A DNA stretch of 48,102 bases from positions 1-48,102 of the forward strand of contig NJEG01000010.1 in NCBI GenBank assembly GCA_002254565.1. The letters are read 5' to 3'. Below the pieces are notes generated by a model. The model ran no database searches and was not told the origin of the DNA. It was given only the letters and a program-made list of their open reading frames with translations. The stretch comes from Candidatus Altarchaeales archaeon ex4484_2. GTDB lineage: Archaea; Altiarchaeota; Altiarchaeia; IMC4; QMZM01. The translations under genes were made by a program, and so were the position numbers. The stretch's first letter is position 1, and each line of letters begins with the position of its first letter. Below, piece by piece: positions 1,940 to 3,043 of the stretch.

Positions 1940-2524
1940 ATGATGCTTAAGATAACAAAAAAAACAGGAGATAGAATAGAATTCAACATAGAGGGGATTG
2001 ATTCCTCAATGGCCAATGCTCTAAGGAGAATAATAATATCAGAGGTCCCTATTATGGCCATAGATGAAGTCAGTTTCTATGATAACTCGTCAGTCATACA
2101 CGACGAACTACTAGCCCACCGGCTGGGGCTTGTTCCACTGAAAACAGATCCAGCAGGCCCGGATACCATCAAGTTAAGCCTTGAGGTTAAAGGCCCTGGT
2201 GCGGTGCACGCCAAAGACCTTAAGTTAGCCCAGACAAAAGTCAAGGGTAAGAAAAAGAAGATAGAGGATATCGCAGTATACGATGAAATGCTTCTGGTGA
2301 AGATTACAGAAAACCAGAGTATAAAACTTGAGGCAACCGCAATACTTGGTAGAGGAAAGGATCACATGAAATGGCAGGGAGGTCTAGCATCATATGAATT
2401 AAGGGATGATGGCTCGTTTGATTTTTTCGTTGAAAGCTATGGTCAGATGAGCGTTGAAAACCTGGTTACAAGATCCCTTGACCTGTTCAAGGATAGACTA
2501 GAAGACCTTAAATCAAGCCTATAA
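1940..2524 (+). CDS. rpoD: DNA-directed RNA polymerase subunit D (Rpo3)
   Basis: This is the archaeal counterpart of bacterial alpha and eukaryotic Rpb3; it pairs with subunit L to seed polymerase assembly. It begins with the dimerization domain, including SSMANALRRIIISEVP and DNSSVIHDELLAHRLGLVPL. At 194 residues it is the short form. It has no cysteine at all, so the [4Fe-4S] cluster domain present in many archaeal D subunits is absent. It lies 3 nt after uS11 and directly before the tRNA gene, as in other euryarchaea. Confidence 0.95.
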   Translation: MMLKITKKTGDRIEFNIEGIDSSMANALRRIIISEVPIMAIDEVSFYDNSSVIHDELLAHRLGLVPLKTDPAGPDTIKLSLEVKGPGAVHAKDLKLAQTKVKGKKKKIEDIAVYDEMLLVKITENQSIKLEATAILGRGKDHMKWQGGLASYELRDDGSFDFFVESYGQMSVENLVTRSLDLFKDRLEDLKSSL

Positions 2525-2526
2525 TT

Positions 2527-2655
2527 GCGGGGGTGCCCGAGCTGGTCAAACAATGATGCCTTACATTCATTAAAGAGGGGACATCTTGGGCTAAAGGGGC
2601 ACGGTTGAGGGCCGTGTGGTGTAGGCCTACGCGAGTTCAAACCTCGTCCCCCGCA
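2527..2655 (+). tRNA. tRNA-Leu (anticodon GAG) with an intron in the D-arm
   Basis: The acceptor stem GCGGGGG (2527-2533) pairs with CCCCCGC (2648-2654); the discriminator is A2655 and no CCA is encoded. The anticodon arm is CACGG-UUGAGGG-CCGUG (about 2600-2616), giving GAG. A long variable arm (class II) precedes the T-arm with UUCAAAC. Removing 45 nt restores an 84-nt tRNA whose D-stem is CCC/GGG and whose D-loop is GAGCUGGUCAAA. Because AAA occurs at both ends, the intron is 2548-2592 up to 2551-2595. The anticodon loop itself is uninterrupted. Its place between rpoD and rpl18e matches haloarchaeal and other euryarchaeal operons. Confidence 0.9.
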
Positions 2656-2680: not shown

Positions 2681-3043
2681 ATGAGAACGCACTATGCTGA
2701 GGATGTGAACAGGCTGCAGCTCATAGAAGAGCTAAAGAAGACAGCGAAAGAGAAAAACGCTGCCGTATGGGGTAAGATAGCTGATGAACTATCGCGCACG
2801 AGGAAAAAAAGACGCTGCGTTAACGTGTGGAAAATCAACAAATTCACGCAGAAAGGGGATGTTGTATTGATCCCGGGGAAGGTTCTGGGTGATGGCATAC
2901 TAGACCACAAGGTGGAGGTAGCTGCCTTTAAGTTCACAGAGAACGCTAAGGAAAAAATCAAAGATTATGGGGGAGAGATAATATCCATTCCCGAACTCCT
3001 GAAGAAAAACCCGGAAGGCTCCAACATCAAAATAATATCCTAG
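2681..3043 (+). CDS. rpl18e: Large ribosomal subunit protein eL18 (L18e)
   Basis: This is a 50S protein found in archaea and eukaryotes and distantly related to bacterial L15. The sequence matches throughout: AAVWGKIADELSRTRKKRR, then VNVWKINKFTQKGDVVLIPGKVLGDG, then a C-terminal ending typical of the family. At 120 residues it is the usual length. It starts 25 nt after the tRNA, so it is either cotranscribed with the tRNA or released by tRNA processing. It is the first gene of the L18e-L13-S9-RpoN-RpoK-S2 series. Confidence 0.95.
   Translation: MRTHYAEDVNRLQLIEELKKTAKEKNAAVWGKIADELSRTRKKRRCVNVWKINKFTQKGDVVLIPGKVLGDGILDHKVEVAAFKFTENAKEKIKDYGGEIISIPELLKKNPEGSNIKIIS

Follow-up and report, generated by a model that had tools for sequence, protein, structure and literature searches.

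The tRNA-Leu(GAG) gene described here is interrupted within its D-arm, which raises the questions of whether the insert is an intron that is spliced out and, if so, which kind of endonuclease would remove it. The gene lies in a 48,102-nt stretch of DNA (the window) from a Candidatus Altiarchaeota MAG of 1.40 Mb in 53 contigs, which is 83% complete and is referred to below as the genome under study. A preliminary description of the sequence had discussed the intron in a euryarchaeal frame; the host belongs to the Ca. Altiarchaeota lineage and is no textbook euryarchaeon. The closest relatives of the RpoD neighbourhood were Candidatus Altiarchaeales/Altiarchaeota, with a best identity of 73%.

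The interrupted gene and its splice motif

The operon order, with protein names read off the translations, was rpoD, tRNA-Leu(GAG), L18e, L13, and S9, and the location of the tRNA within an rpoD/ribosomal-protein operon was as claimed in the preliminary description (Table 1). When 45 nt were taken out, the 84-nt product was called tRNA-Leu(gag) by ARAGORN, with a cloverleaf carrying a long variable arm and with the uninterrupted anticodon loop that had been described. For the unspliced window, ARAGORN placed tRNA-Leu(gag) at 2575-2655, with a wrong 5' end, and Rfam at gathering scores reported no tRNA in the window. A search for another intact tRNA-Leu(GAG), raised earlier as part of a possible refutation, found none in the assembly, an absence that is not proof at this completeness. 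A second locus matching the search (contig C19) was tRNA-Leu(TAG).

Table 1. Features of the interrupted tRNA genes and of the operon (window positions unless a locus is named)
Feature	Position	Strand	Remark
rpoD (RNA polymerase subunit D)	1940..2524	+	stop codon 2 nt upstream of tRNA
tRNA-Leu(GAG) gene with D-loop intron	2527-2655	+	sequence as in the preliminary description
5' exon of tRNA-Leu(GAG)	2527..2549	+	acceptor strand, D-stem 5' strand, D-loop up to A21
GGTC, 5' strand of 4-bp central BHB helix	2544..2547	+	G18 G19 and next two D-loop bases
5' bulge AAA	2548..2550	+	predicted cut 2549/2550
Intron, 45 nt	2550..2594	+	between A21 and A22 (numbering of this analysis)
CAA, first strand of intron stem h'	2551..2553	+	pairs with 2586-2588 (UUG); stem goes on beyond bulged U
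GGCT, 3' strand of central helix	2589..2592	+	
3' bulge (or loop) AAA	2593..2595	+	predicted cut 2594/2595
3' exon	2595..2655	+	D-stem 3' strand, anticodon arm (GAG), variable arm, T-arm, acceptor
Ribosomal protein L18e	2681..3043	+	next operon gene
Initiator tRNA-Met with two introns	L056:1444-1587 (contig C8 of the genome under study)		34 nt at 30/31 non-canonical, 35 nt at 37/38 canonical

The intron boundaries were fixed by the cut rule for a bulge-helix-bulge (BHB), in which cleavage falls between the second and third bulge nucleotides, and they lie inside the range that had been allowed for a 45-nt D-arm intron. As the 5' bulge is AAT in two related loci (L004 and L022), a junction further to the right is excluded. 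The BHB fold that had been suggested as a check around 2548-2596 can form, and its central helix and both bulges were retained in all 13 sequences with the D-loop insert: the D-loop GGYC pairs with GGCY over four of four pairs, and each of the two bulges (AAN and ARA) measures exactly 3 nt. The intron stem comprised 3-14 contiguous pairs across the 13 sequences. With one defect allowed, 11 of these stems exceeded base-shuffled sequences at p ≤ 0.015; p did not fall below 0.05 in L002 (p = 0.057) and L014 (p = 0.088). In the 13-row alignment (A2) on which the pairing and covariation figures are based, 96.2% of the cells in the aligned helices paired, compared with 21-47% with slid partners, and the covariation score was 0.303 versus 0.158 when shuffled, with none of 500 shuffles as high. 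Changes on both sides were observed in seven cells of this alignment, and the count of pairs changed on both sides was not above shuffles (270 of 500).

The central helix was part of the MFE structure from RNAfold for 11 of the 13 precursors and was absent for L005 and L007 (P 0.19 and 0.12, respectively). As modelled, the 5' site conforms to the strict motif, whereas the 3' site may be of the strict or of the relaxed (HBh') form. The sequence TTGGGC, noted earlier in the intron at 2587-2592, is present, and its correct position is 2586-2591. Its proposed pairing with GCCCGA of the D-stem as an alternative precursor fold is possible but did not hold up energetically: with four of these pairs forced, the energy was -48.3 kcal/mol, versus -52.9 kcal/mol when the forced elements were the intron stem and the central helix. 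The forced GCCC/GGGC fold was likewise worse than the form combining the D-stem with HBh' in all 12 precursors able to form it, and the L017 precursor cannot form it.

Two further features of the intron were noted. At least four consecutive C occur in the intron loop of seven of the 13 sequences (L003, L005, L006, L007, L014, L022, and L023), and in the unspliced precursor they could base-pair with the G-rich strand of the acceptor or of the D-stem; the window's own intron has no such run. A short run in the latter intron, which we take to resemble a C box by the box C/D consensus, raised the candidate of a box C/D guide RNA, and this was dropped, as no D box was seen in that intron and no conservation was apparent by eye.

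Distribution and history in Altiarchaeota

Two pattern searches with different spacer lengths were each run on 394 archaeal genomes, of which one gave G005 and the other gave twelve more. The D-loop insert was found at the same junction in 13 of the 29 genomes of the phylum, which belong to families f1 (10 genomes), f3 (1), and f5 (2). Eight genomes (G013, G015, G016, G017, G019, G020, G021, and G024) carry the gene without a D-loop insert, with the expected junction GGTCAAAGGGG in the intronless relatives; in G019 and G020, an anticodon-loop intron is present in place of the D-loop one, and in three of the 13 (G008, G009, and G010) it is present besides it. The gene was not recognised in the remaining eight phylum genomes. 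Pattern matches in G056 and G389 were discarded, L162 being an ordinary tRNA-Leu and L163 being judged from the matched string alone.

The insert might be retained, either in a tRNA that works with an expanded D-arm or in a decaying pseudogene. Such a locus would fit the failure of standard finders, which miss or mis-bound it (ARAGORN reports two of the 13 D-intron loci, both with a wrong 5' end), but all 13 genomes preserve an intact acceptor, anticodon arm, and T-arm, the insert itself has covariation and BHB geometry, and ARAGORN finds all five intronless relatives checked. We therefore consider retention or decay highly improbable. A chance insert is also disfavoured because the junction is the same in 13 of 29 genomes, the four helix pairs are complete, and the intron stem is above shuffles in 11 of the 13. 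The sequence evidence argues strongly for a functional tRNA-Leu(GAG) whose D-loop intron would very probably be cut out at the BHB by the archaeal splicing endonuclease. In the transcript, the D-loop GGYC and the GGCY at the 3' end of the intron would form the 4-bp helix, AAN and ARA would each stand out as a 3-nt bulge, and the helix would be lengthened by the stem within the intron; the endonuclease would then cut out the 45-nt intron at the BHB, and RtcB, the gene of which is present in the genome, would join A21 to A22. The annotation of tRNAs can fail in such genomes, as these genes are overlooked or given wrong ends by ARAGORN and Rfam.

In a tree of RpoD, L18e, and L13 (23 rows), in which few branches are well supported, the intron label changes at least five times, and at least two of these changes are forced by the starred branches. 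The interiors of the introns from the two f5 genomes showed similarity above shuffles to several f1 introns (e.g., L005-L023, p = 0.001). When the two f5 introns and the f3 intron were compared with the ten f1 introns, 10 of the 30 pairs were similar at p < 0.02, and 20 did not reach this threshold. The resemblance between f5 and f1 favours common descent over independent insertion. As part of the best explanation taken as a whole, the D-loop intron is probably old in this Altiarchaeota order, inherited in part of it, while other lineages lost it or lack it.

The insert is a real, conserved D-loop tRNA intron. D-arm introns are known as a kind in archaeal tRNAs, with positions 20/21, 22/23, and 25/26 listed in the available text of PMC4090602, and non-canonical introns with a BHB are described there and in the available parts of PMC3218864 and PMC8450103 for Crenarchaeota, Nanoarchaeota, Thaumarchaeota, and ARMAN. 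In those accounts, such introns are, like the present one, short, structure-defined, and located outside 37/38; the present case differs in its Altiarchaeota host, in one homologous intron that is conserved across three families, and in an EndA without CSL/ASL (see below). The lineage-conserved Altiarchaeota case appears to be new: a literature search, whose coverage mostly leaves out subscription papers and so allows for an earlier report, found no report on Altiarchaeota tRNA introns.

Splicing endonuclease and a second interrupted tRNA

The intron had been taken to imply a splicing endonuclease with relaxed specificity, and a check of the endA subunit type had been recommended. A single PF01974 match was obtained in 20 of the 24 genomes of the order (no match in G001, G005, G014, and G019), and EndA is in hand for 11 of the 13 D-intron genomes. 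In the genome under study, one PF01974 match only was obtained with E up to 10, corresponding to a 173-aa open frame. Its best PDB match was 1a79, the homotetrameric (alpha4) EndA of M. jannaschii, which is of the same size (E 3.2e-36, residues 6-172, a single one-residue gap). In control searches, Vulcanisaeta, a Thermoprotei MAG, and a Thaumarchaeota MAG each yielded two genes with the same profile, the second one beta-like, and Micrarchaeota yielded multi-unit EndA proteins; thus, a comparable second subunit would probably have been picked up. Judged by its sequence, the EndA is alpha4-like, with a single short catalytic gene and no beta or fused unit found in this genome, and its size and likeness to 1a79 suggest a tetramer. 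The CSL/ASL, a loop that is tied to broad specificity and is inserted, with its Lys, ahead of the LSLVEA helix, was absent from all 20 EndA sequences of the order in the alignment, where this place is filled in the Thermoprotei, Thaumarchaeota, G280, Micrarchaeota, and G289b rows. The gene thus lends no support to the relaxed specificity that had been expected, the only EndA found being alpha4-sized and lacking this insertion, though the enzyme itself may still act loosely. In the same alignment, the EndA of the Altarchaeum-like f7 genomes (L188-L191) carries a long additional segment ahead of the catalytic domain's HS motif, and this segment is absent from the other EndA sequences of the Altiarchaeota order.

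The partner enzyme is the unusual point, as a conserved D-loop intron occurs alongside an alpha4-like EndA. In the available parts of the reviews, alpha4 and alpha2 EndA are described as limited to the canonical BHB (PMC4033280), and the efficient removal of relaxed motifs is ascribed to (alpha beta)2 and epsilon2 only (PMC6379350), which weakens the splice reading. A concentration of non-canonical introns in Crenarchaeota and a few others and a trend towards more of them in loop-bearing species are stated in the accessible text among PMC4033280, PMC4090602, PMC6379350, PMC12397907, PMC8707768, PMC8450103, and PMC3218864. In published reviews, tRNA introns located elsewhere than in the anticodon loop are connected with EndA types that bear special loops, and the present Altiarchaeota are a natural test of this. 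Compared with M. jannaschii, the genome under study combines such an enzyme with introns in the D-loop and at 30/31.

The latter intron is one of two in the initiator tRNA-Met gene, the 3' part of which gave the weakest Rfam tRNA match (17.1 bits). Removal of both introns yields a tRNA-Met that is identical, from GGGTT on, to its intronless counterpart in G001 (L227), a genome of the same genus, and agrees over its full length, save one D-loop base, with the genes of G004 and G011 (L228 and L229). In L227, the expected first acceptor bases are missing upstream of GGGTTGAGC, which may reflect an assembly error, divergence, or another interruption. Of 17 initiator loci found in the phylum, 15 were read, and the 30/31 intron was present in the genome under study alone and in none of the other 14; it is apparently recent. 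It can form a 4-bp helix (CGUC/GGCG) and a stem (CGCA/UGCG), and the cuts in its bulges, GGA and AAG, are in register, with no outer pair adjoining the central helix, for which RNAfold gave a probability of just 0.15. In the MFE structure, the 3' part of the second intron can pair with the D-loop region, and thus the order of splicing may matter. More than one intron per tRNA outside Crenarchaeota is shared with Methanopyrus kandleri and Methanothermobacter thermautotrophicus, for which multiple-intron tRNAs are tabulated in PMC4033280; unlike here, a conserved tRNA-Leu D-loop intron is not described for them in the available part of that source.

Within the splice reading, the form of the 3' site was weighed in two ways. 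The EndA may act on relaxed motifs without the known loops, the D-stem staying paired and the 3' site lying in an internal loop (HBh'), a reading to which we give somewhat less than an even chance. The D-stem and a contiguous outer helix beside the 3' bulge are mutually exclusive because the G23-G25 strand is used by both, and the forced D-stem form was favoured over the contiguous outer pairing in all 13 precursors, by 1.7-6.3 kcal/mol (RNAfold, energies of secondary structure only); in the unconstrained MFE of most precursors, the D-stem was shifted by one register, with the exact D-stem in two of 13. The initiator 30/31 intron, with its helix and cut sites in register and no adjoining outer pair, also points to relaxed cutting, but the low probability of its central helix tells against this, as does the contiguous outer helix of one to three pairs that can form in all 13 D-loop precursors (two to three pairs in 12).

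These same outer pairs, together with the 3-nt bulges on both sides in all 13, are consistent with a strict hBHBh' motif, in which the pre-tRNA would give up its D-stem, bases 16-17 would pair with G23-G24 beside the central helix, and an alpha4 enzyme would need no new ability. The energetic cost relative to the D-stem form stands against the strict motif, as does the initiator 30/31 intron, which has no comparable outer pair, and we rate this possibility only slightly below relaxed cutting. Returning to the latter, it is quite possible, though less likely than not, that an alpha4 EndA without CSL or ASL serves the order to splice HBh' introns both in the D-loop and at 30/31 and that the D-loop intron came early in the lineage. 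If true, CSL/ASL would not be required for broad substrate use.

The same junction outside the phylum

The D-loop junction was interrupted, as judged by eye, in G032, G248, G315, G348, G280, G289, and G344, several of which have more introns; thus, the site seems to have been in repeated use and not to be confined to Altiarchaeota. The EndA of G280 is a two-unit protein with a CSL-like loop, G289 has a multi-unit EndA with an ASL-like loop as well as a short EndA, and the EndAs of G248 and G348 are short and without CSL. No PF01974 EndA was obtained at E ≤ 10 in G032 (f11) or G394, despite apparent tRNA introns. The Aenigmatarchaeota record of the latter genome (L108) contains a tRNA-Leu(TAA) in which a short intron interrupts this D-loop junction (L108:1435-1486 and following), and further introns apparently follow downstream, including one near the T-arm.
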